From NCBI GenBank assembly GCA_001791645.1, contig MGFA01000005.1:10078-49075 (forward strand): a stretch of 38,998 bases of DNA. Direction: 5' to 3'. Source of the DNA: Candidatus Uhrbacteria bacterium RIFOXYB12_FULL_58_10 (lineage in GTDB: Bacteria; Patescibacteriota; Patescibacteriia; UBA9934; GWF2-40-263). The position numbers and the translations under genes are program-made. The notes under the pieces are model-generated. The model saw only the letters and a program-made list of their open reading frames with translations. It was not told the origin of the DNA and did not search any database. Numbering within the stretch: the first letter of the stretch is position 1; every line of letters begins with the position of its first letter. This document shows positions 7,051-20,811 of this stretch, piece by piece.

Positions 7051-8886
7051 TTATTCCACGGTCGCATTGCCGGCGGCCATGGCGTCATCAGGCAAGTTGG
7101 TGGTGATCGTCGCGCCAGAGGCGGAAACGAATGCGCCCGTGACCGCGTCCGTTCCGATGACGCGGACATTTTTGAGAAGCGTGGGGATTGTGCCGATTTG
7201 ATTTTCTGACGGGGTAATGGCGAGCTCGAATGCGATTCCGACGATTTTGCTCGATGGAGAGAATGTTGGGTTCACGGAGGTTGCGGTCCAGACGATCTCA
7301 TTCGAGGTGAAATCATAGATAACGCCGCCATTGACCGAAACGGTCTGCCGTCCGGTAAACGTGACGTTCGTGCCAAGTTCTCCCTCGATGCGAACGTTCG
7401 TCAGCTCGTTCGTGGTTCCGCGAAGATTCCAGAAGGCCCAGTATTTGGTCGTTTCTCCCGCGAGCGGGGGAAGGGCACCGCGTCCGATTTGGTCGCCGCT
7501 CGGTGACGCGTAGCGTGCGAATGAATCGAGGGCTATGGGCGACGTCATCACGTAGGTCAGCTCGCCGTCGCGCATTGTCGCGTCTTTTGTGTCGCCCATG
7601 TCGAACACGGCGAACGCGCGCGACGAAAATGGGATCTGTTCGTACGTATCCGTCGCGCTCTGGGAAACGGACGAACGAAGAGGAAATTCGACCGTGACGA
7701 TGCCGCTTTCGCCCGGGGCCACGGATGCCAGTTTTGGATCGGTCGAGGATGACACCGCAAAGGTCGCGGAGCGCGCGAACGGACTTTGCGACTCCACGCC
7801 GATCCGTACGTTTGTCACGGACTCGTCGCTTATATTCGTGTACGTGACGGTAATGCGCGCCGCGCCGCCTGGACGCACGGTGTCCGCGTCCACGCTGTGC
7901 GAAACTTGCAGCGGCAACGGAATCACGTTTACGTCGTGGGTCAGGGTTTCCTGCCGGTAGAGGTCCTCGCCGAACGCGAACGAAGGATGAAATCGGAAGG
8001 TTGTCGTCCCGGGCGTGTCTCCGAGGGTTCCGGTAAAGGCAAGCGTACCTTCGGTTCCGGCGGTGATTGCCGGGAGTCGAAATACGCCGTTTGCAAGCGG
8101 GACGTCTGAGGAGATGAACGCAAATCCGTCCGGCCATTCTGGTTCGATCATGATTTCCGGGTAGTCAATGTCTCCGGAATTGCGATAGGTCAGGGATCCT
8201 TCGACGGATTGGGACGCGACAACGCGTTTTGGAAGAAAAAGGGAAAGCCCAAGCGTTGTCTTTGAAGGAATGAAGACATGTTCGTCCGTTTTGGTGCCCG
8301 GTACGTTTTTTTCTCCGTGCGTAAAGGTGAGTGTGCTCACGAACGTTTGTTTGCCGCCAACGTCGCCGAACATCACGCCGCGAATCTTTACGGAACCGAC
8401 GGCGTCTGGCGGAATCGTTCCAACGTCGATGGTTTGACCATGTCTTGGTACGGTGTCATGCTCGAGTTCCTGGAGCAGGAAGTGCGCGGGGAAGTTCAGA
8501 AGAAGTTTGGCGTCGCGCAGTTCCTCGCCCGTGTCGTTTTTGTAGCGGATGACGAGTGTGGAGGGCGCGCCGGAAACGATCTCATGCGGGGCAACGTCGG
8601 CTTGAAACAGAATGTGGTCCGCGAACGAGGTTGGCGTGTACACGGCGAAGGCGAGCGCGATAAGGCCAAGTCCAATGGCAATGCCAACAAGCACGAGGTC
8701 GAACAAGAAGGTCAGCCGGGCGAATCGATATTTTCCGCGATATCGTTTCTCAAACCAGTGGACAAGCGGAAATACGGCGATCCGTCCAGGGTGCGCGGCC
8801 AAACACACGGCCTTTTCACGGACCGTTTTCGCGTCCTTGATGGAATTACACGCGATGCCATGGTTGAACTCTTCTATGAGGGACAT
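7051..8886 (-). CDS. membrane-anchored extracellular protein with Ig/CARDB/DUF11-like repeats
   Basis: Likely start MSLIEEFNHGIACNS at 8886; one N-terminal TM (FLFDLVLVGIAIGLGLIALAFAVY); beta-rich domains (LVIRYKNDTGEELRDAKLLLNFP..., ITVTYTNISDESVTNVRIGV). Confidence 0.7.
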   Translation of the reverse strand: MSLIEEFNHGIACNSIKDAKTVREKAVCLAAHPGRIAVFPLVHWFEKRYRGKYRFARLTFLFDLVLVGIAIGLGLIALAFAVYTPTSFADHILFQADVAPHEIVSGAPSTLVIRYKNDTGEELRDAKLLLNFPAHFLLQELEHDTVPRHGQTIDVGTIPPDAVGSVKIRGVMFGDVGGKQTFVSTLTFTHGEKNVPGTKTDEHVFIPSKTTLGLSLFLPKRVVASQSVEGSLTYRNSGDIDYPEIMIEPEWPDGFAFISSDVPLANGVFRLPAITAGTEGTLAFTGTLGDTPGTTTFRFHPSFAFGEDLYRQETLTHDVNVIPLPLQVSHSVDADTVRPGGAARITVTYTNISDESVTNVRIGVESQSPFARSATFAVSSSTDPKLASVAPGESGIVTVEFPLRSSVSQSATDTYEQIPFSSRAFAVFDMGDTKDATMRDGELTYVMTSPIALDSFARYASPSGDQIGRGALPPLAGETTKYWAFWNLRGTTNELTNVRIEGELGTNVTFTGRQTVSVNGGVIYDFTSNEIVWTATSVNPTFSPSSKIVGIAFELAITPSENQIGTIPTLLKNVRVIGTDAVTGAFVSASGATITTNLPDDAMAAGNATVE

Positions 8887-8896
8887 ACGTTCAGAC

Positions 8897-10840
8897 CTAT
8901 TTAAACGATAACGTAAACATGTCGCTGGACAATCCAATGACTTCCGCGCGATCGTCCCCATCGATATCCGCGGCGGTCACTTCCACTCCGTTGGCTCCTG
9001 ACGCCTCAAAAGCGAAGAATTGCGATCGCATCTGCCCGTTTCGGTCGAATATGCGCACGTGTGGTCCGCCGCCTGCTCCCGGACCCGTGATGATGTCATC
9101 CGTGCCGTCGCCGTCCACGTCGCCGGCCGCGACGTTCACGCCTCCGCGGAAAGCCGGATCATAGGCGAAGAATCCCGGATTGATTACCTTGCCGTCCTTG
9201 TTAAACACGCGCACGTGCGGTCCGCCGCCAACCCCGGCTCCGGCTATGATTTCATTGGTGCCGTCTCCATTCAGGTCTCCGATGGCGACGTTCACGCCTC
9301 CGCGAAACGCCGTGTCGTACGCGAAAAATCCGGGATGGATGAGATTGCCGTCCTTGTTGAAAATTCGGATTTGTGGCCCGCCGCCATTTTCCGTTCCCGT
9401 CACGATCTCAATCGCCCCATCGTTTTCTAGGTCGCCGATGGCAATGTTTATGCCAAGCTGGTAGGCGTTCCCGTACGGGGCAAATCTGGCATGCATTGAT
9501 CCATCGTCGTCATAAATGGTTACATAGGTATCGTCCGCGACGACGGTCTCATATGTTTCGTCGCCGTCCGTGTCGTACGCGTTGACGCGCGTGCCGCCGC
9601 GGCCCTGCGAGGTGTACGCGAAAAAGCCATTGCGCTTGGTCGCGCCGTCGGCGTTGAAAATGCGCGCGAACGCACCGTTCAGGTAGGTGGCCTTGTAAAT
9701 TTGTTCGAGCGGTCGAAGCAGCACGAGCCCGTCCTGGGCATTCAGGGTGACACGCGAGACAATTGATCCGTCATTTGTGGTCGTGTCCTGGGTTCCGTGG
9801 ATTTTTTCGTACTCGCCTTGAAGTCGAACGGTTTGCATTTCCGTCGTAGGATTGACAATGACCTTTCCTTTTTCGAATTCGCGCTCCCAAATGCTGGCAG
9901 AAGACGACGCATCGCCTTTTGGCTCGCCGAGAGTCACGGCAAATTCATCATACGTCCAAAGCTGCGCATGATTTTCCGTCCCATGGTCGAATGAAAAGTA
10001 TCCGTCGCCGAGCAGGGTCGTGGTCAGACCAAGGCGCATTTTTTGATAGTCTGCCTGTGCGCCGGTGTTTTCCGTGTTGACATTTACGACGATGACCGGA
10101 TCGTGCCCGAGTTTTGAAAACAATGACAAGTAATCGTTTGCGGAAGCGCTCCACGAAGAAACCGTATTTCCCGTAGACGGAAATGTTTCAAACATGCGTC
10201 CGTTTACATACGGCGTGAACGCGGTCGACGAGCTGCCATTCGTGATGATGACCGCGTTCGAACCAAGCTTCGACCGGGTCGCGGAGAACAGGTTGGCGTA
10301 GCCTTCTTTCCAGTCATCGCGATCCATGACCTCATCGTAAAAAATGCCGTCCCAATATCCTGAGGACATGATCTGCTCGTCGACGAACGTCGTGAGGTAT
10401 TCGGTCCATCCCGAATTGAGGTCAAGGGCATTCGTATTTGGCCAGATGGACGTTTTGTTTCCGTTCGCGTCCCGCAACCACCAGCTGTCCTTGATCCCGC
10501 GCTTCATTTGCACATGGAGCGGATCGGACCAAAACGCGTTGTTCCACGAGACGGTCGGGACGTAGGCGAGAATTTGAATGTCTGGGTTGAGCGCGCGTAT
10601 CGACGAAAAAAACGCGACGTTGTACGTCTGCGCTTCCGATGGGATAACAATAAGGTCAAATTCAGCAAGCGTGGCAATCGTCGCGGTATTTTCGAGTGAG
10701 GAACCAGAAAGCAGGTAGTAGTTCGCGGTACGCACAAAAGTCCCCGTTGCCGCTCTGGCGGGGAAAATACAAAGAGACAAGAAACAAAAGCATGTAAAAA
10801 CAATGGCAAGTTTTTGTATCTTGTATCTTGGGATTTTCAC
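8897..10840 (-). CDS. secreted putative glycoside hydrolase (GHL15-like TIM barrel) with C-terminal FG-GAP/VCBS repeats
   Basis: GTG start at 10840 in a GTGA overlap with the HTH gene; signal peptide VKIPRYKIQKLAIVFTCFCFLSLCIFPARA; DGIFYDEVMDRDDW; repeats GVNVAIGDLNGDGTNEIIAGAGVGGGPHVRVFNKDGKVINPGFFAYDPAFRG. Confidence 0.75.
   Translation of the reverse strand: MKIPRYKIQKLAIVFTCFCFLSLCIFPARAATGTFVRTANYYLLSGSSLENTATIATLAEFDLIVIPSEAQTYNVAFFSSIRALNPDIQILAYVPTVSWNNAFWSDPLHVQMKRGIKDSWWLRDANGNKTSIWPNTNALDLNSGWTEYLTTFVDEQIMSSGYWDGIFYDEVMDRDDWKEGYANLFSATRSKLGSNAVIITNGSSSTAFTPYVNGRMFETFPSTGNTVSSWSASANDYLSLFSKLGHDPVIVVNVNTENTGAQADYQKMRLGLTTTLLGDGYFSFDHGTENHAQLWTYDEFAVTLGEPKGDASSSASIWEREFEKGKVIVNPTTEMQTVRLQGEYEKIHGTQDTTTNDGSIVSRVTLNAQDGLVLLRPLEQIYKATYLNGAFARIFNADGATKRNGFFAYTSQGRGGTRVNAYDTDGDETYETVVADDTYVTIYDDDGSMHARFAPYGNAYQLGINIAIGDLENDGAIEIVTGTENGGGPQIRIFNKDGNLIHPGFFAYDTAFRGGVNVAIGDLNGDGTNEIIAGAGVGGGPHVRVFNKDGKVINPGFFAYDPAFRGGVNVAAGDVDGDGTDDIITGPGAGGGPHVRIFDRNGQMRSQFFAFEASGANGVEVTAADIDGDDRAEVIGLSSDMFTLSFK
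9020..9480 (-). repeat. tandem FG-GAP repeats, 156-bp (52-aa) period
   Basis: The motif gttcacgcctccgcg recurs at 9134 and 9290; further units on each side. Confidence 0.7.
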
Positions 10841-11124
10841 ACAGGGTTGTCCTCCAACGTTTTCGGATTCGGGGAGTATAGCTTGTTCTTGATCTTCCAT
10901 TGGTTCACGTACTGGCCGATTCCTTGCCGGTCGCGCTTGTTGCGCACGGTTGTGGTATCCTGTGACCACTTGAGGAGTGATTCAAAGTTCAGTTTGTAGC
11001 GTCCTTGGACGACCACATAGGTTATTTGTCCGTCGGAAATGGCACGACGAATCGTGCGTTGCGACACCCCAAACATGCGGGCTGCCTCCGACACGGAAAG
11101 CCGAATGATTGAAACGAGAGCCAT
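10837..11124 (-). CDS. helix-turn-helix DNA-binding protein (excisionase/MerR-like HTH)
   Basis: LSVSEAARMFGVSQRTIRRAISDGQITYVVVQGRYKLNFESLLKW. Confidence 0.75.
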   Translation of the reverse strand: MALVSIIRLSVSEAARMFGVSQRTIRRAISDGQITYVVVQGRYKLNFESLLKWSQDTTTVRNKRDRQGIGQYVNQWKIKNKLYSPNPKTLEDNPV

Positions 11125-11267: not shown

Positions 11268-11813
11268 GTGCGAAGTGATCGAGAAAAATTCCTGATATTT
11301 CGTATTAGATCCTTCCAGGATCAGAATGCCTTTTCCGAGTTGTTCCTTGAGCATAAAAATGCGCTGTACGCATTTCTTGCCACGAGGCTCCCGTCAAAGG
11401 AAGACGCGGACGATATTCTGAACTTGGTGTTCTTGCGAGCGTGGAACTTTCTGCTTACTTCCCATGCAAACGAGAAGGACCATTTCTCCGGCCTTATCTT
11501 TCACATCGCGCGATACGCCCTGAAGGATTATTGGAAAGGCAAGCGGAACATGCTCTCGCTTACGGACATGCATGAATCCGGTCAGGATATCGCGGACGTC
11601 CATGCTTCCGGGAAATCGATTGAGGCCGGTACCGAGGCGAACCTGATCAAGGAAACGCTGAGCCGCCTCCCGGAAGAATACCAAGAAGTAATCGTCCTGC
11701 GTATCTTTGAACAGCTCGACTATCCGGAAATTGCCAAGCGTATGGAGAAGAACGTGAGTGCCATTCGCGTGACGCTTCACCGCGCATTAAAGGAGTTACG
11801 AAAATACTTGTGA
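11268..11813 (+). CDS. ECF-type RNA polymerase sigma factor
   Basis: Region 2-like (FSELFLEHKNALYAFLATRLPSKEDADDILNLVFLRAW) and region 4-like (LSRLPEEYQEVIVLRIFEQLDYPEIAKRMEKNVSAIRVTLHRALKELRK); GTG start. Confidence 0.85.
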   Translation: MRSDREKFLIFRIRSFQDQNAFSELFLEHKNALYAFLATRLPSKEDADDILNLVFLRAWNFLLTSHANEKDHFSGLIFHIARYALKDYWKGKRNMLSLTDMHESGQDIADVHASGKSIEAGTEANLIKETLSRLPEEYQEVIVLRIFEQLDYPEIAKRMEKNVSAIRVTLHRALKELRKYL

Positions 11814-12859
11814 CGAATAAGCAAATCATCGCCATGCTGACGAAGCATAAGGACGCCCCCGAGTTCGGGGGCGGCATTGGCGTTGGGCATACGGAGGCCG
11901 CATGGAGGCGCCTTTCGAACGATCTGGGATTTGAAGCGAAGCTTGGACGGGCGACCTATCGGTTGCGCGACTATCTCGAATACTGGCAGTGGAAATTCTC
12001 ACACGTGTGGATGCAGCCGGTTTCCGTGGCCATGACCGCGTTCGCCCTTATCTTCGGGGGATGGATCGCCTCGGTAAATGCCTCCTTCGATTCCGTGCCG
12101 GGCGATGTCCTGTATCCGGTGAAGATTGCGACCGAGCGCATGCAGGTGACGCTTGCGACCTCCGGCCAGCAACGCGCCAAACTTCACGCGGAATTTGCGG
12201 GACGTCGCATCGACGAACTCAATGCCATCACAAGCTCTGACCTGGAAGGAAAGGACGTCCGCGTCCGGGTTGCAATGGACGGGTTCCAGCAGGAGATCGC
12301 TTCGGTGAACAGCGAACTGGTTTCTTTCACCAGCTCTAATCCGAATGAAGCCGCGGCGCTCGCCATCATCGTTGATCAGAAAACCGATGCCTACGTAGTC
12401 GCCATCAGCCAGACCGTGCCCACCGTTTCGGAAGAAAGCAAGTCTACGGTCGCCGAGGCGCTTACGGCCGCGGAAGCGTCCAACGTTCAGGCAATCAACA
12501 CCATCGTTCAAAGCCACGAGACAAACCAGCAACCGAAAACGGAAGAATCGCTCCAGAAGAACCTGCAAGAGAAATTAAAAAATCTGGAAACGCGAACGGC
12601 GCTTTCGCTCGGGCGTCTCCAGGTCATTGAAACGGTGCTGGTCAATCGAGGTTCGCTCACGACCGCATATGCGGGGCGCATCAAGGAAGCTCGCGATGCG
12701 GTTGCCATGCACGACGTCTCCATCCAAACCGCCATGAACACGTTTGCCGCAGGAGGGTATCGCACGGCCTTTGACCTCCTCTCGGAAGTCGAAGCGCAGA
12801 TCGCAGCCTCCGAGACCATTATTACGGAGCTTGAAATCGACATCACGACCGGGCTTTAG
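11810..12859 (+). CDS. single-pass membrane protein with DUF5667-like extracytoplasmic region, possible anti-sigma-like partner
   Basis: GTGA overlap with sigma factor stop; TM PVSVAMTAFALIFGGWIASVNA; SVPGDVLYPVKIATERMQVTLATSGQQRAKLHAEFAGRRIDEL. Confidence 0.65.
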   Translation: MTNKQIIAMLTKHKDAPEFGGGIGVGHTEAAWRRLSNDLGFEAKLGRATYRLRDYLEYWQWKFSHVWMQPVSVAMTAFALIFGGWIASVNASFDSVPGDVLYPVKIATERMQVTLATSGQQRAKLHAEFAGRRIDELNAITSSDLEGKDVRVRVAMDGFQQEIASVNSELVSFTSSNPNEAAALAIIVDQKTDAYVVAISQTVPTVSEESKSTVAEALTAAEASNVQAINTIVQSHETNQQPKTEESLQKNLQEKLKNLETRTALSLGRLQVIETVLVNRGSLTTAYAGRIKEARDAVAMHDVSIQTAMNTFAAGGYRTAFDLLSEVEAQIAASETIITELEIDITTGL

Positions 12860-13003
12860 TCTCCGGCCCGGCGTCCGAACATCGGGCGTCGCTCCGGGGT
12901 CTAAACCCCGCTAACCATGTTAAGGCGCGGACATGCCAAAAGGTCGAGGCCGCCAGGCCGCTTGTCTGCCTTAGAAACTAATAGGCTACACATTATTTTC
13001 CTT

Positions 13004-16000
13004 ATGATCGATTCTCTTAAAATGGGGAAGCGTGCGATCACGGTGGCGGTAGCTGCTGCGACCATTCTTTGGTCCGTTGGCATCTCTTCCTTCGTGGCGC
13101 CGTTGACGGCTCGCGCGGCTTCGTCCGGCGACCTCATCAAGGGAACCACGCTCTCGACCGTGTATTACTACGGTTCGGACGGTTCCCGCTACGCGTTCCC
13201 GAACGAGAAGACCTACTTCAGCTGGTACTCGGACTTCTCGGACGTTGAAACCATCTCTGACTCCGCGCTTGCGGCCATTTCGCTCGCCGGAAACGTCGTG
13301 TACCGCCCGGGTACGCGCTGGGTGAAGATCCAGAGCGACCCGAAGACCTATGTCGTCACTCCGGAAGGACAGATCCGCTGGGTCGAGTCCGAGGATGTCG
13401 CCACGGATCTCGCGGGCAGCGACTGGAACACCATGATCGACGACGTTCCGGATACGTTCTTCGTCGACTACACGGTTGGCACCTCCCTGACCGACGCCGG
13501 TGACGCCTACAACGGCGCGCTCGTCGACATGGATGGCACCACCTATCTCGTTTGGGACGGTGAGATGCGCGAGGTTTCCTCGGCCGGCTTCTCGGCGAAC
13601 CGCTTCCAGACGCGCAACGTGCTCGACGGCGCTGGCATGGATCTTTCCGGCCTCGACGCTGGCTCGAGCATCACGAGCTCCGTTTCGGCCTTGGTCGACA
13701 CGGCCCAGCTCGGAGGAGTAGAAGTCACGGGCGGTCTCTCGATCTCCCTTGCTTCTGACACGCCGGCGTCATCGACGATCCCGGCAGGTGCTTCCTCGGT
13801 TGCGTTCGCCAAGTTGAAGCTGATGGCTTCGTCCGGCTCTGCCGACGTCAGCCAGATGGTCTTCCGCCTTGGCGGCATCGGTGGCGTTGACAACATTGAC
13901 AGTGCCTACCTGTATGAGGGTTCTGTTCGCTTGACGGATGGCCGCTCGGTCAATTCCTCGACGCGCAACACGACCTTCTCCGGTCTTGATATTTCCTTGG
14001 CGTCTGGTGAAACCAGCTACGTCACGGTGAAGGCCGACATCTCCAGCACCCCGACGGGCGGCGACACCGCGAACTTCTCGCTCGTGGAGGCCGACTCCGT
14101 CACGTCTTCGGCCACGGTCTCCGGTTCGTTCCCGATCTCGGGCAACACCATGACCTTCTCCGAGACGGCCGCTGGTACGGTGACCATCGACAAGTCTGGA
14201 TCCATTGCTGATCCGACCATCGGTGAGGAAGAGGCCGAAATCGCTGAGTTTACGATTACGGCTTCCGGCGAAGACGCGTGGCTCGAAATGATCACGGTCA
14301 ACGTTGACAGTGCTGCCGATCACAGCGACTATATGCTGTTGAACGGTGGCGACGTGATTTCCACGGGCGTACAGGTCAACGACCTGGTTACCTTTGAGCT
14401 CACGGACACGCTCTTCATTGAGGAGGGCAACGACGAACGCTTTAACGTGACGGCCACCATTGGCGGCGAAGCCAATGACAATATCAAGGTCGCCATCGAA
14501 GAAAAGACGGACGTCGTGGCGGTTGGTGGCGACTATGGGTTTAACCTTAGCGTCGACATCGACGATGTCACCTCAGCCTCCTCCGCGTACGACGAAACGG
14601 GCTCGACCTGCGCCAGCTCGGCTGACGACTGTTCGTTCTCGACGATCCAGGGCGGCGAACTCACGTTCGCGTTCAACGGTCCGTCGGCGAGCGATATCCA
14701 GATCGACGGCAAGGACCAGGTGATGATGGAATTCACGCTGACCTCCGCGAACTGGACGGAAATCCAGGAAATGGCCGTCATCTTTGCCGATTCCGGCGAG
14801 GACGATGACGACGATGACGACACGGGTCTCAAGCAGACCGATGAGGACACGAACCTCTCCGATCTCGCGATCCGCAAGTCGACTGGTTCCATCTGGATGG
14901 GCCCGGAAGAGCTTTCCGGAGGGGACTCCGCGTCCGATGCCACCCAGACTATTACATTCACCGACGACCAGATCCTGCAGGCGGGCGAATCGCTCGATCT
15001 CATGATCACGGTTGACGTGGACTCTGGCGCGACTGCCGATCAGATCTACACGGCAGCCATCGACATGAGTGCCGTCGTGGCGGAAGACGCCAATGGCGAC
15101 GACCTTGCGACGACGGACATCGTTCCGTCCTCGGATATCACGGGCAAGAACATGACGCTCGTTGATTCCTCCCTGACGTACTCGGCTTCCACGCCGCCGT
15201 CCGATGGCACCTACGTGAAGGGTTCCACCGGCGTGTCCGTGGCCGGCTTCAACTTTGACGCCGGAGACGCCGCCGATGTTACGCTTACGGACTTGACGGT
15301 CAACGTGACCGGTGACTCCGACGCCACTTACGGCGCGGAGAACGACATCGACGTGGGCGACCACGTGTCGTCCTGCTCGCTCTATGACAGTCAGTCGGGT
15401 TCTCTGGTCGATGGACCGGAATCCCCGTCCGACAATTCGGCCACTGCCGACCTTGAGTTCCAGAGCTTTGACTGGACTGTCGCGGCCGGCGAAACGGGCA
15501 AGCTGCTCGTGAAGTGTAACTTCTCGAACACGGCCCTCGACACCACGGACGCCGCGAGCGATACCTATGCCTTCAGCATCGCTGATGACACGGATATCAC
15601 CGCGGAAGACGCGGATGGCGATGACGTGGACGCCACGCTGAACGGCACGGACGGCTCCGCCGACAACGTCGACGGTTCCGTCACGACCATCACGATTGCC
15701 GCCGAAGGTTCCCTTACGGCGACCGTCGACGGTTCCACGGCCAGTTCCACCATCATCCTTGGCGCTTCGACGGGCATTTCCGTTTCGAAGTTCAAGTTTG
15801 CCGCGACGGACGAGCCGTATGTGGTAACGAAGTTCGTGCTGGCCAACTGTGTGACGTCGGCGGTTGACGCCAACGGCACCTGTGGCGACGCGGGCGACGA
15901 AACCGACGGCACCGACGGCATTGCCGCGGCCGTCAAGATCAGCTACACCAATTCTGCTGGCGCGACCGAAACCAAGACGGGGTATCTCTCCGGTGGTGCC

Positions 16001-16867
16001 GTTACGTTCAGCAACCTCGACCTGTACGTTGCGACCACGACTACCAGCACGGTGACGGTGAGCGTAGACACGGCTTCCGTGTCTTCGACCGGTGCCGCCT
16101 CGGGTGCCCAGATCCAGCTCAACCTGGACGCGGAAACCTCGGGCGCTTCGGAATTCGAAGCGGTTGGCCAGTCGTCTGGCGAAACCTACACTGAGGCTGA
16201 CATCGACACCTACGTTCTCGCGAACGACATGGTGATCCGCAAGACGAAGCCGACCATCTCCCTTGCCTCTGGTTCCCCGTCCGGTGCGGGTATCGCTGGC
16301 AACTCGGAGGTGTTCCGCTTCAACGTTGCCGCGGACTCCCGCGGGTACGTGACGCTCGACAAGGTTTCGTTCCAGGTGTCCACCTCGGACGCCGACAACG
16401 ACTTCAACCTTTGCGACGACGCGGCTGGTGACACCAACCTCGAAGACGCGACGAAGTGGGAACTCTATGACCTCGATGACTCGTCGACCAAGCTCGACGA
16501 CGCGGGCGACTGGACATTCCTTGACAGCGGCGTGAGCGATGCCTCGGAAGACTGTGACGCGGGTGCTGTCCTCGCGTGGGCAGTGCTCGACTTCACGGGT
16601 TCCGCGACGACCGGTTCCGAGGAAATCGGTGCCGGCGAAACCAAGACCTACGTGCTGAAGGTCGACACGACGGGCGCGTCCGCTTCGGACGACGACTCGA
16701 TCCGCATCGACATTCCGGACGAGGCCACGGTTGACGCGAGCGACGCGTTCACTGGTTCCGACGCCGACGAAATGTCGATCCAGTGGGATGACGATGCCGA
16801 AGGCACCAACGCCGACGGTACGTACATCAAGAACCTTGCCGTCACTGGCGGTTCGATCCAGTACTAG
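13004..16867 (+). CDS. S-layer-like giant secreted acidic protein
   Basis: Start MIDSLKMGKRAITVAVAAATILWSVGISSFVAPLTARAAS (signal peptide); 1288 codons; Asp/Thr/Ser-rich, Cys-poor beta-type sequence; strongly biased C-ending codons. Confidence 0.75.
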   Translation: MIDSLKMGKRAITVAVAAATILWSVGISSFVAPLTARAASSGDLIKGTTLSTVYYYGSDGSRYAFPNEKTYFSWYSDFSDVETISDSALAAISLAGNVVYRPGTRWVKIQSDPKTYVVTPEGQIRWVESEDVATDLAGSDWNTMIDDVPDTFFVDYTVGTSLTDAGDAYNGALVDMDGTTYLVWDGEMREVSSAGFSANRFQTRNVLDGAGMDLSGLDAGSSITSSVSALVDTAQLGGVEVTGGLSISLASDTPASSTIPAGASSVAFAKLKLMASSGSADVSQMVFRLGGIGGVDNIDSAYLYEGSVRLTDGRSVNSSTRNTTFSGLDISLASGETSYVTVKADISSTPTGGDTANFSLVEADSVTSSATVSGSFPISGNTMTFSETAAGTVTIDKSGSIADPTIGEEEAEIAEFTITASGEDAWLEMITVNVDSAADHSDYMLLNGGDVISTGVQVNDLVTFELTDTLFIEEGNDERFNVTATIGGEANDNIKVAIEEKTDVVAVGGDYGFNLSVDIDDVTSASSAYDETGSTCASSADDCSFSTIQGGELTFAFNGPSASDIQIDGKDQVMMEFTLTSANWTEIQEMAVIFADSGEDDDDDDDTGLKQTDEDTNLSDLAIRKSTGSIWMGPEELSGGDSASDATQTITFTDDQILQAGESLDLMITVDVDSGATADQIYTAAIDMSAVVAEDANGDDLATTDIVPSSDITGKNMTLVDSSLTYSASTPPSDGTYVKGSTGVSVAGFNFDAGDAADVTLTDLTVNVTGDSDATYGAENDIDVGDHVSSCSLYDSQSGSLVDGPESPSDNSATADLEFQSFDWTVAAGETGKLLVKCNFSNTALDTTDAASDTYAFSIADDTDITAEDADGDDVDATLNGTDGSADNVDGSVTTITIAAEGSLTATVDGSTASSTIILGASTGISVSKFKFAATDEPYVVTKFVLANCVTSAVDANGTCGDAGDETDGTDGIAAAVKISYTNSAGATETKTGYLSGGAVTFSNLDLYVATTTTSTVTVSVDTASVSSTGAASGAQIQLNLDAETSGASEFEAVGQSSGETYTEADIDTYVLANDMVIRKTKPTISLASGSPSGAGIAGNSEVFRFNVAADSRGYVTLDKVSFQVSTSDADNDFNLCDDAAGDTNLEDATKWELYDLDDSSTKLDDAGDWTFLDSGVSDASEDCDAGAVLAWAVLDFTGSATTGSEEIGAGETKTYVLKVDTTGASASDDDSIRIDIPDEATVDASDAFTGSDADEMSIQWDDDAEGTNADGTYIKNLAVTGGSIQY
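13127..13497 (+). other. domain shared with the subtilase C-terminus (copy 1)
   Basis: GDLIKGTTLSTVYYYGSDGSRYAFPNEKTYFSWYSDFSDVETISDSALAAISLAGNVVYRPGTRWVKIQSDPKTYVVTPEGQIRWVESEDVATDLAGSDWNTMIDDVPDTFFVDYTVG. Confidence 0.75.
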
Positions 16868-16891
16868 TTTCCGCGCAAGCGAAACCAGTAC
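16861..16891 (+). promoter_or_regulatory. GCAA-tetraloop hairpin over the S-layer-like gene stop codon
   Basis: GTACT-A-GTTT-C-CGC-GCAA-GCG-AAAC-C-AGTAC; 12 bp with one mismatch and one bulge; TAG stop at 16865-16867 lies in the 5' arm. Confidence 0.55.
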
Positions 16892-16990
16892 GGACAATCT
16901 CTTCGCCAATCCCGAACGCCGCCGCGGCACATTCGGCTGACCCCTCGGGGAATGCCTTGGCCGCACTGGCACTACGGATCCTGAGGAGCC

Positions 16991-17020
16991 AAACCCGTCC
17001 CGCATTTGCGGGGCGGGTTT
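16991..17020 (+). terminator. strong intrinsic terminator
   Basis: AAACCCGTCCCGC / GCGGGGCGGGTTT, loop ATTT, 13 bp stem, then TGGTTT. Confidence 0.75.
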
Positions 17021-17044
17021 TGGTTTGCTATGATCGGTTTGCTA
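17006..17044 (+). promoter_or_regulatory. promoter TTGCGG-17-TGC/TATGAT, leaderless start 9 nt downstream; overlaps the terminator stem
   Basis: TTGCGG at 17006-17011 (in the hairpin), TATGAT at 17029-17034, ATG at 17044. Confidence 0.55.
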
Positions 17045-17754
17045 TGAATCCAAAACGCATTAAAATTGCCGCCGCCGCCTTGATCGTTTTTGGTCTCGCG
17101 GGATATCTGCTTTGGATTTCCTTTTTGCCCGTTTCACCCCCTTCGCCTTCTGAATCTCCGCTGATAGCTTTTGTTGACCGTGGCATTAGCGAGGAACAAT
17201 TGCAGACGTTTCACGATCGGATTGTCGAGTTTGAGATCACGGTGAAAGATAATGAAACCAACGGGGCGCGCGATATCAGCGCGATTCTCTCGCTCGGGAA
17301 TCTTTATTATCAAATTGGCGACCTGGAAACCGCGGCCAAGTGGTACCGCGAGATCCTCCGGACGAACCCGAAGGACGGCGCGGCGCTTGAGAACCTTGCC
17401 CAGGCGCAAATAGAAATGGGCGATTGGGAAGGCGCGGACGCTTCGCTTCGGGCGGCCGTCAACGTTTCCGCGTACGAGCCGTCCTACATCAAGCTCGCGG
17501 ATCTGATAGACGAGCATTTTCCCGAACGCCGCGATGAGATCCAAGTGATTCTTGAAACGGCAATCGCAAATCTCGGCCAAACTCCAGGCCTGCTTTCGCG
17601 GCTCGGACGCTGGTATGCCGACCAAGGGATGCTTGACGAGGCTATTTCGCACTATCAGGTCGCACACCAGATTGACCCGGACGACCAGGCGATTGAGAAT
17701 ACGCTCGACGAGCTGAGGAAGGCTCGCAGCGCAGCCAGCAAGGACGCGCGATAA
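17044..17754 (+). CDS. membrane-anchored TPR protein
   Basis: MNPKRIKIAAAALIVFGLAGYLLWISF TM, then TPR-like helices (ILSLGNLYYQIGDLETAAKWYREILRTNPKDGAALENLAQAQIEMGDW; AISHYQVAHQIDPDDQAIENTLDEL). Confidence 0.8.
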   Translation: MNPKRIKIAAAALIVFGLAGYLLWISFLPVSPPSPSESPLIAFVDRGISEEQLQTFHDRIVEFEITVKDNETNGARDISAILSLGNLYYQIGDLETAAKWYREILRTNPKDGAALENLAQAQIEMGDWEGADASLRAAVNVSAYEPSYIKLADLIDEHFPERRDEIQVILETAIANLGQTPGLLSRLGRWYADQGMLDEAISHYQVAHQIDPDDQAIENTLDELRKARSAASKDAR

Positions 17755-17760
17755 TAGTGG

Positions 17761-17766
17761 TATAAT
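17761..17766 (+). promoter_or_regulatory. extended -10 TGG-TATAAT upstream of subtilase gene
   Basis: TGGTATAAT at 17758-17766; 6 nt before an ATG at 17773. Confidence 0.6.
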
Positions 17767-17772
17767 GACGGC

Positions 17773-17808
17773 ATGTTTGGCGTGCCGTTATTTATTTTGT
17801 GCGACTAG
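17773..17808 (+). CDS. possible 11-codon leader ORF (MFGVPLFILCD)
   Basis: ATG 6 nt after TATAAT; TAG stop 2 nt before the ATG of the subtilase. Confidence 0.25.
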   Translation: MFGVPLFILCD

Positions 17809-17810
17809 GT

Positions 17811-19427
17811 ATGCTTTGGAAAATTTGCCTCTTCACTCTGATTTTGGCGTCGTTCGCGCTTCCGGCGATTGCGCGGACGCCCAATGATACGGATTATTCG
17901 GAACAATGGTACCTGGAAAAGATTGGTGCGCCAGCGGCATGGGACGTGGCAACCGGGACGCACGACGTTGTCGTGGCCGTGCTGGATTCGGGCGTGGATC
18001 TCGATCATCCGGATTTAGTGGCGAATTTCTGGTCGAATCCTGGCGAGATCGCCGGTAACGGTGTGGATGACGATGGGAACGGCTACGTGGACGACAATCG
18101 CGGATGGGATTTCGTGGAAGAAGACAACACTCCGGAACCCACTCGCGGCGGAGCATACACCGATGATGGCGTGGCCCATGGCACGGTGATCGCCGGGCTG
18201 ATCGGCGCGGTTGGAAACAATGGTCAGGGCATTTCTGGCGTGTCGTGGAGGGTGAGCATCATGTCTTTGCGGGTTCTTGACGACGTCGGATCCGGCGATT
18301 CCGCCGACGCGCGCCGTGCCATTGAATACGCAATTGAAAACGGCGCGAACGTCATTAACCTTTCATTTACCGGATATGAGGTGGACCAGGCATTTGAGCA
18401 GGCGGTTAACGAGGCGTACGTTGCGGGCATTCCCGTGATCGCGGCCGTTGGCAACGTGAATGGCGGCGGAATCAACGTTGATGAGACCCCAGTCTATCCG
18501 GCGTGCTTTGTGGGCGAAAGGGCGGATTGGGTCATTGGCGTTGCCGCGACGACCAAGGAGGATACGAAGACTGATTTTTCCAATTACGGTTCGACGTGTA
18601 CCGAGCTTTCCGCACCGGGCGAGGATTTGTTCGGCACCATGTACCAAAATGACGATTGGGCAGATTTTCCAGATTATTATCATGGAGGCTGGTCAGGCAC
18701 GTCTGTTGCCGCGCCGCTCGTGACCGGAGCCGTGGCGCTTTTGAAATCCGCATTTCCATCGCTCACCCCATCGCTTATGCGCACGGTGTTGCAGTTATCC
18801 GTGGATCCCTTGAAGGAATCTGGGACCGATGCGACCGGCAAGCTTGGGGCAGGGCGGTTGAATGTCGGTCGTGCCATGGAAATTGCCCCAGCGTTCGCAG
18901 GCATGGCAGCGGGCGGCGCCCTGCCAGGAAGCATGGGCATTTCTCCCATCACTGGCGAGCAGGAGGAAATCACGTCCATAACGCCGGGAGCCTTTATCCG
19001 ATCGCCGGGATTTGACACCGTGTATTATGTGGATGGGGGCTATAATCGTCACCCTCTTTGGGACCAGCAAACGTTCTTTACGTGGAATGATTCTTGGGAT
19101 GATGTCGTTTGGGTGACGGACGCCACGCTTCCGACATTACCGCTCGGCAATGTGCTTCCTCCCAAGCCGGGCGTCGTCCTCGTGAAGATTCAAAGCGATG
19201 CGCGCGCGTACGTCGTCGAGAACGGCGCAACGCTCTGGCGGCCGATCCTGCGCGAACTCACGTCGGAGGACGTCGCCGTTGGCATGTTCGGCGCGAATTG
19301 GGGCGACTTCGTAATCGACGTCGAGCCGACGCTGTTTTCCCACTACCAGGCAGGCGACCCGATCGTGTCCGTGGAGCCGGCGGATTTGTCCGCGTTAAAA
19401 ACTCGCCTATCGTTGTTATCGAATTGA
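17811..19427 (+). CDS. secreted S8 subtilisin-like serine protease
   Basis: Signal peptide MLWKICLFTLILASFALPAIA; VAVLDSGVDLDHPD (Asp), DDGVAHGTVIAGLIGA (His), GTSVAAPLVTGAVALL (Ser). Alternative GTG start at 17799. Confidence 0.92.
   Translation: MLWKICLFTLILASFALPAIARTPNDTDYSEQWYLEKIGAPAAWDVATGTHDVVVAVLDSGVDLDHPDLVANFWSNPGEIAGNGVDDDGNGYVDDNRGWDFVEEDNTPEPTRGGAYTDDGVAHGTVIAGLIGAVGNNGQGISGVSWRVSIMSLRVLDDVGSGDSADARRAIEYAIENGANVINLSFTGYEVDQAFEQAVNEAYVAGIPVIAAVGNVNGGGINVDETPVYPACFVGERADWVIGVAATTKEDTKTDFSNYGSTCTELSAPGEDLFGTMYQNDDWADFPDYYHGGWSGTSVAAPLVTGAVALLKSAFPSLTPSLMRTVLQLSVDPLKESGTDATGKLGAGRLNVGRAMEIAPAFAGMAAGGALPGSMGISPITGEQEEITSITPGAFIRSPGFDTVYYVDGGYNRHPLWDQQTFFTWNDSWDDVVWVTDATLPTLPLGNVLPPKPGVVLVKIQSDARAYVVENGATLWRPILRELTSEDVAVGMFGANWGDFVIDVEPTLFSHYQAGDPIVSVEPADLSALKTRLSLLSN
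18987..19374 (+). other. domain shared with the S-layer-like protein N-terminus (copy 2)
   Basis: GAFIRSPGFDTVYYVDGGYNRHPLWDQQTFFTWNDSWDDVVWVTDATLPTLPLGNVLPPKPGVVLVKIQSDARAYVVENGATLWRPILRELTSEDVAVGMFGANWGDFVIDVEPTLFSHYQAGDPI. Confidence 0.75.
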
Positions 19428-19449
19428 ACGGTGAAAATTGGATGAGCAT

Positions 19450-20811
19450 ATGGAAATGAAGGCAACAGAATTCAAAGAGGAGCGCAAATGGAAGCAAGTG
19501 GATGAATTCGGCCCCGAACATCTTGAGGCACAAGGTCAAAGAATGTTAGCTGCGACTGGGTACGCGGAGGGTTTCGTGCGAAAATTAGGCGCTCTCCAAA
19601 AGGAGGTGGAGCACCATCGGGTTTGCGTGGATACGATTCGAGAGCGTCTTGCGTCCGGTTCGGCTGATACGGCAACGGATGAATCGTTTCGGAGATTTCT
19701 TGTTGGCGAAGAACAGAGTTTGAGGGAATCTACTTCCAATTATGAGGAAACATTGAAGCAACTCAAACAGGAACTTTCCGGCATGCTTTGCGATTCCGAA
19801 CAGGTTTCCGAGTCAAATAAGCTGCGTTCCAGATTGGAAACCATGTGGAAGAGCGACGATGCGTTTTGTGAATCCGTTCAGTCGCGGTATGCGTCCGTCG
19901 ATGATTTCCTGACCGCGTTGAGGGAACAGACGGTGCCATTGGAAATCCTTGTCTCCTTTCTTGGAGCTGAATCTCGAAGATTCAACAAGGTAACAGAGCG
20001 AGCCAAGGAATCCTTCCTCGCGTGGAGACAGGAGTATTTTCTTCGTTCTTTTGATCCGGACATTCAACAGTATCTGCGCGTGTCAACTGAGCTGGTTCGT
20101 CAACGCCTTCAGGAGCTGGCCTTCACATGCATCGATTCGCTTGCGCCTCAGAGAGGATTCGGCGACTATGGTTCGTCTGTCGTTCGCATTGATTCGGATT
20201 TGTACGAAAATGACGTTGGTTTGTCACGGCACGTCGTTTTCCATGAGCTGACACACGCCGTTCTCGGGAACGGATACGAGGTAACAATCAAGGACGTAGA
20301 GCTTGCGGACAAAAGGGAAAAGGATATGTCCGCGTTGTTTGGAAACCGTGCGGCGCCTGGTTTCTTTCGTCAGGTTCCATCGGCGATCACGCGGAAAAGC
20401 GGGGTACATTTTCATTTGGAGGAGGATGGAAGGAGAACGAAAGATCAACAGATTTGGATGAATGAGGGGTTGGTCGAGCTGCTTGCGGCCCGTATGGCGG
20501 GTAAAAGGCCAAGAGCGTATTTGGAGTTTATCGATGAGGTGTGGAGAATGGTTGACGCGGGAATGGAATGGCAGACCCTATATGAGGCGGCTGCTGAGGA
20601 TCTGTTAAAGGAACCTGTGAATAGGAGCCGTATTCCGGCGTATGACAGGATGGTGCGTCGGATGAGGGAATTGGAGGGACCCGGAGCAATGCGGCGGCAT
20701 GTGGAGTCGATTGAACGAAAAAACAAATATCGGATAAGGGCGGGCTGGTACGCCTCAAGACAAGGCCTCTTCCGTGATATACTGATGCCATATGCCAGAG
20801 CTTGTCTTTGA
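19450..20811 (+). CDS. putative HExxH metallopeptidase (gluzincin-like) with N-terminal coiled coil
   Basis: VVFHELTHAVLGNGYE (HExxH) and downstream WMNEGLVELLAARM; no obvious signal peptide; Glu/Lys-rich N-terminal helices. Confidence 0.6.
   Translation: MEMKATEFKEERKWKQVDEFGPEHLEAQGQRMLAATGYAEGFVRKLGALQKEVEHHRVCVDTIRERLASGSADTATDESFRRFLVGEEQSLRESTSNYEETLKQLKQELSGMLCDSEQVSESNKLRSRLETMWKSDDAFCESVQSRYASVDDFLTALREQTVPLEILVSFLGAESRRFNKVTERAKESFLAWRQEYFLRSFDPDIQQYLRVSTELVRQRLQELAFTCIDSLAPQRGFGDYGSSVVRIDSDLYENDVGLSRHVVFHELTHAVLGNGYEVTIKDVELADKREKDMSALFGNRAAPGFFRQVPSAITRKSGVHFHLEEDGRRTKDQQIWMNEGLVELLAARMAGKRPRAYLEFIDEVWRMVDAGMEWQTLYEAAAEDLLKEPVNRSRIPAYDRMVRRMRELEGPGAMRRHVESIERKNKYRIRAGWYASRQGLFRDILMPYARACL
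20778..20792 (+). promoter_or_regulatory. TGA-TATACT extended -10, 8 nt before ATG (leaderless), inside the upstream CDS
   Basis: TGATATACT GATGCCAT ATG. Confidence 0.55.

Follow-up and report, generated by a model that had tools for sequence, protein, structure and literature searches.

A tandem-repeat module related to EccB R domains recurs on exported proteins of Candidatus Uhrbacteria and may attach them to the cell envelope

Two separated genes of Candidatus Uhrbacteria bacterium RIFOXYB12_FULL_58_10, one for a giant S-layer-like protein and one for a secreted subtilase, carry similar stretches at opposite ends of their products, which raises the question of what this shared module is and what it does on such different proteins. 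Surface retention of proteins in genome-reduced, probably episymbiotic Patescibacteria is poorly known, and in the literature searched, the coverage of which was incomplete, we found no description of the module or of an S-layer anchor in Patescibacteria or Uhrbacteria. All coordinates are positions in the window, a stretch of 38,998 nt from contig MGFA01000005.1 (GCA_001791645.1) of the 1.12-Mb genome (Table 1).

The gene cluster and the two copies of the module

The cluster runs from an ECF-type sigma factor through a DUF5667 protein (which may regulate that factor), the giant protein and a TPR protein to the S8 protease, and parts of this order recur in other loci. Not counting the window, relatives of the DUF5667 protein turned up in 56 of the fetched loci and those of the S8 protease in 27; the TPR protein has relatives in 17 fetched loci, and more than 40 loci encode a relative of the giant with the module at its N-terminus. 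The giant had no match in Pfam or NCBIfam, and it is a putative S-layer protein by its architecture and conserved gene order only. The protease belongs to Peptidase_S8 (PF00082; 165.3 bits against a cut-off of 21.8, E=2.5e-48), which was its only match in Pfam; a candidate assignment as a mycosin (TIGR03921) was rejected, as its score of 150.9 falls below the curated cut-off of 278.75. Directly 3' of the protease lies a 457-aa ORF (19438-20811, +) that has no Pfam match and resembles zinc metalloproteases in its HELTH motif (FHELTHAVLGNG). The window also encodes a protein of 692 aa in which nine putative metal-binding motifs of the MopE type were matched (PF11617; 1193-3271, +) and a 636-aa protein containing DUF11 (7051-8961, -).

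Table 1 Features of the gene cluster and of the two module copies in the window.
Feature	Position	Strand	Basis
ECF-type sigma factor, first in cluster	11268..11813	+	Pfam Sigma70_r2, Sigma70_r4_2
DUF5667 protein, likely membrane segment (by eye), upstream of giant gene	11810..12859	+	PF18915, E=2.6e-9
Giant exported protein, 1316 aa, S-layer-like by architecture only	12917..16867	+	ORF
Giant module (residues 72-192)	13130-13492	+	Profile and alignment
Giant module, repeat 1	13130..13294	+	HMM, alignment, AlphaFold strands and helices
Giant module, repeat 2	13295..13492	+	HMM, duplicate of repeat 1, AlphaFold
Giant module, repeat 3 (degenerate)	13493..13681	+	Similar AlphaFold strands and helix, alignment
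TPR protein between giant and protease, likely membrane segment (by eye)	16957..17754	+	Pfam TPR families
Secreted subtilase (S8), C-terminal module, 542 aa	17799..19427	+	PF00082, signal peptide, GTSVAAP motif
Protease module, C-terminal	18990-19367	+	Profile and AlphaFold
Protease module, repeat 1	18990..19151	+	HMM, AlphaFold
Protease module, repeat 2	19152..19367	+	HMM, AlphaFold
Protease tail helix after the module	19377..19421	+	AlphaFold helix, lower confidence

An earlier note on this DNA, made by eye, had claimed that a homologous module of ~125 aa stands at the start of the mature giant protein and at the end of the protease, and both the homology and the placement are borne out at the positions it gave. 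The two copies are 31% identical over 140 residues (BLASTP, E=9e-21). To avoid circularity, we also scored both with a profile built without the protease copy or the two paralogues nearest to it; this gave 91.4 bits for the protease (iE 2.3e-27) and 167 bits for the giant, as compared to a best score of 4.1 bits among 1000 shuffled tails. AlphaFold models were confident for the three repeats of the giant (pLDDT 93.1) and the two of the protease (pLDDT 89.7), with the same order of elements in both, namely three strands, a helix, a strand and a helix. As the similarity is significant and the predicted folds agree, neither the profile comparison nor the structure prediction speaks against homology.

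The module is itself an internal duplication as judged from its sequence, with its first and second halves matching each other at 96.8% probability in profile comparison, and it consists of tandem repeats of ~57 residues, two in the protease and three in the giant. The giant's third repeat is clearer in relatives (e.g. L136). No counterpart of the module was found in Pfam, NCBIfam or PDB sequences; profile matches of the module or of single repeats to PDB sequences such as Crov588 and designed propellers were rejected as compositional, being summed weak matches to repetitive proteins. Beyond the module, the protease ends in a KTRxxL-type tail, which is common to C-terminal modules of this genome and to some relatives. 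Two other proteins of the genome (L041:5953-8919 and L042:5932-7335) share with the protease (17799-19427) both this tail and a GxSPxxG...EEI linker preceding the module.

Distribution, carriers and the link between protease and giant

Searches for further carriers returned nine copies in the genome itself, to which a profile search adds weaker partial matches, and 2-17 copies in each of 30 genomes (this one and 29 relatives; threshold E<=1e-10). In a sample drawn across the phylum, the module was matched in 41/192 genomes, including 12/12 from its own class. A scan of contigs, which was run with a tight module alignment in place of a more diverse one, found 432 coding stretches with the module, and nearly all of 79 fetched loci are titled Uhrbacteria, Patescibacteria or something unspecific. 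One contig titled Candidatus Methylomirabilis (L112), possibly a binning error, encodes a large protein that has the module at its N-terminus. Viral contigs scanned for the module and for single repeats yielded no relatives, and phages searched with the giant's module yielded no matches. The module is thus a general feature and is not specific to the pair of protease and S-layer-like protein.

The carriers are exported proteins of many kinds. Module partners include S8 and two trypsin-like proteases, cupredoxins, SH3, Big/Ig and a beta-helix with PG_binding_1, and we read one further carrier as LytM-like. Where the 5' end of the ORF was intact, the module was preceded by a hydrophobic stretch close to the start in 159/164 cases, as called by a crude hydrophobicity rule rather than a signal-peptide predictor. 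Placement is terminal in most carriers: N-terminal modules begin soon after the signal peptide, at a median distance of 25 aa, and C-terminal modules leave a median of 25 aa beyond them, an arrangement that resembles that of anchoring modules. Two proteins of the genome (L037:6873-7661 and L038:132-917) combine an N-terminal module with a C-terminal cupredoxin-like domain; in relatives (e.g. L131, L135, L149), proteins that are alike in size class and in having an N-terminal module form tandem arrays. The protease's short tail has no LPXTG and no hydrophobic helix by eye. The genome encodes one sortase and PG_binding_1 occurs on two module proteins, so further attachment routes exist.

The earlier note had gone further and suggested that the protease and the giant share a common surface receptor or sorting platform, or that the protease docks on the layer. 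When 164 modules were placed in a tree, the protease copy fell together with two modules that stand at the C-terminus of Ig-like proteins of the same genome (support 100/100) and the giant's copy among other giants; a recent duplication between the two was rejected, since the tree separates them. In 21/30 genomes (our count from two hit lists), an S8 gene and a giant gene share a strand and are no more than about 10 kb apart, and most of these orthologous proteases end in FG-GAP-like repeats and have no module. By profile, the module occurs on six S8 proteins in six genomes (this one, G195, G198, G200, G207 and G217); an S8 protein of L111 also carries it, as probably does that of G215 from its full-length alignment. 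As G198 and G200 have S8 proteases of both kinds, and most others have FG-GAP-like repeats, the C-terminal appendage is exchangeable, and the connection between protease and giant is therefore one of gene order, not of the module. What stands of the proposed platform is that a module shared by exported proteins fits retention at the surface; that the pair itself is special is not supported, given nine copies on diverse proteins, separate tree groups and orthologous proteases with FG-GAP-like repeats. Similar FG-GAP-like repeats occur in the window on a GHL15 putative glycosyl hydrolase (8897-10969, -).

Relationship to EccB R domains and single-repeat proteins

In Foldseek, both models had as their best PDB hits the periplasmic R domains of EccB, a protein of the type VII secretion (ESX) core, with E-values of 0.003 and 0.009 at probabilities of 0.94 and 0.91. 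No hit passed E 0.001 and TM-scores were low, we think because the repeats are oriented differently, and the link to EccB therefore holds at the level of the repeat. EccB R domains (3x3n, 4kk7, 5cyu, 7nps) are, like the module, built from repeats of ~51-57 residues with four strands and two helices. For profile comparison, we used an alignment of single-repeat relatives from other Patescibacteria, which matched the two module halves at 98.6% and 97.1% probability and aligned with Streptomyces EccB at three repeat positions with a best score of 48.9 (maximum of 18.8 in 200 column shuffles). The module halves matched EccB directly but more weakly, with scores of 31.2 and 26.1 (shuffled maxima 17.9 and 19.2). 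By predicted fold and profile comparison taken together, the module repeats are members of the EccB R-domain superfamily. The architectures differ: EccB is distinguished by its transmembrane helix and central domain, and the Uhrbacteria repeats come in pairs or triplets on exported proteins. Pfam searches of the giant and the protease gave no match to the EccB family itself (PF05108), and an EccB search of the whole genome gave no hit, but neither did the control genomes, so this negative carries no weight.

What EccB R domains bind bears on the module in two ways. Those of EccB1, in which four strands combine with two helices, were reported to be similar to PlyCB, a phage protein that binds the cell wall, and peptidoglycan binding was proposed for them without experiment (PMC4769845). 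In ESX-5, R domains contact EccB and MycP, with R4 contacting the S8 protease MycP5 (PMC8131196). As EccB R domains also make protein contacts, the superfamily is not solely glycan-binding.

Single repeats also occur outside Patescibacteria, on a CDP-glycerol transferase-family protein (a glycosyltransferase) from a polysaccharide gene cluster of Priestia and on CgeD, a spore maturation glycosyltransferase of B. subtilis. In both the CgeD type and the Priestia transferase, the repeats share the module's consensus and follow the catalytic domain, but these proteins have no obvious signal peptide and are glycan-synthesis enzymes rather than exported cargo. Other intermediate sequences came from an archaeal surface-type protein and from Streptomyces phage gp47. 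The former is a PGF-pre-PGF protein (L161:1927-6157) with one repeat upstream of LGFP-like segments (by eye); the latter (L160:3779-4180) carries the repeat, lies near a minor tail gene and is a member of PHROG 9616 (E=1.5e-36), an actinophage family of small proteins of unknown function that is related to the single repeats. This family was matched by single-repeat relatives (E=1.5e-12 and 2.1e-14) and by the third repeat of L136 (3.6e-7); it gave no match to the giant and protease copies. A viral fold search returned weak lysin hits (CHAP, amidase, lysozyme; E about 1-6), which are suggestive of cell-wall binding and were not counted as evidence.

Envelope attachment and its alternatives

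We hold with moderate confidence that the module, built from tandem repeats of the EccB R superfamily, serves Candidatus Uhrbacteria and related Patescibacteria to attach proteins non-covalently to the envelope, with a cell-wall glycan as its most likely ligand. Its two tandem repeats (three in the giant), each of ~57 residues and predicted to fold as beta-beta-beta-alpha-beta-alpha, would, once exported, bind some part of the envelope of the very cell that made them, and this binding would hold the giant at its N-terminal end and the subtilase and other soluble enzymes at their C-terminal end. On this reading, the ligand would be a glycan and not the protein lattice. In favour of attachment are the spread of the module over exported proteins with unrelated partner domains, its terminal placement, the fold shared by both copies and its kinship with EccB R domains, the peptidoglycan proposal for EccB1, the single repeats on the Priestia transferase and CgeD, and the lack of SLH hits in all 30 genomes. 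Against it count the protein contacts of EccB in ESX-5, the weaker direct profile scores, the other attachment routes of the genome, and the lack of an obvious signal peptide on the Priestia transferase and CgeD.

The main rival is docking onto the S-layer, in which accessory copies would bind the giant or each other and enzymes would ride on the surface lattice. We consider this unlikely, and it stays alive because R4 of ESX-5 EccB contacts the MycP5 protease, in a complex where EccB domains also pack against each other (PMC8131196). The presence of the module on nearly all giants of the group and the proximity of the S8 gene to the giant gene would suit docking as well, but the module is missing from most of the S8 proteases encoded next to the giant, so proximity does not require it. 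In addition, the giant's module is N-terminal, which is the usual position of an anchor rather than of an exposed docking site, and related single repeats are found far from S-layer contexts.

That the module is instead a sorting or secretion signal for a dedicated export or assembly machine, in the manner of type IX C-terminal domains, appears improbable to us. Most carriers do place it terminally, and the shared linker and tail of the C-terminal copies in this genome would be in keeping with such a signal, but the module is found at either end of its carriers, nearly always with an ordinary signal-peptide-like start, and EccB and glycosyltransferases contain related repeats. We likewise give little credence to the idea that domain shuffling has spread a structural spacer or an interaction-neutral domain with no common binding function. 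Many conserved module positions hold aromatic residues or glycine, which might serve the structure alone, and the partner domains are very diverse; however, about 7 copies are retained per reduced genome of ~1 Mb, in terminal positions and in every relative searched, which argues for a selected function.

If the module does attach its carriers to the envelope, it marks exported proteins that are probably displayed and offers a handle on the surface proteome from sequence, and as small soluble domains such modules would make the wall-binding proposal for EccB R domains testable. The module is a variant of a known repeat superfamily with a plausible anchoring role. More tentatively, and with less than even confidence, we suggest that EccB-R-like repeats represent an ancient fold for binding the envelope, and that Uhrbacteria with their relatives expanded it into a general non-covalent anchor for S-layer-like proteins and exoenzymes, in the place that SLH has elsewhere; the fold would in that case also anchor EccB of type VII secretion and phage proteins of unknown function.

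A known system of comparable architecture is SLH (S-layer homology). The SLH family (PF00395) had no hits in the genome or its 29 relatives, as compared to hits in 4 control genomes, and neither the giant nor the protease matches the SLH profile. The SLH fold is mainly helical, unlike the secondary structure of the module. Nevertheless, SLH trimers, like the module, consist of two or three tandem repeats of ~55 residues, are placed terminally on an S-layer-like protein and are reused on secreted enzymes, and terminal tandem repeats on an S-layer-like protein and on secreted enzymes are what we found here. The best reading by analogy is that the module would work like SLH while being unrelated to it in sequence.
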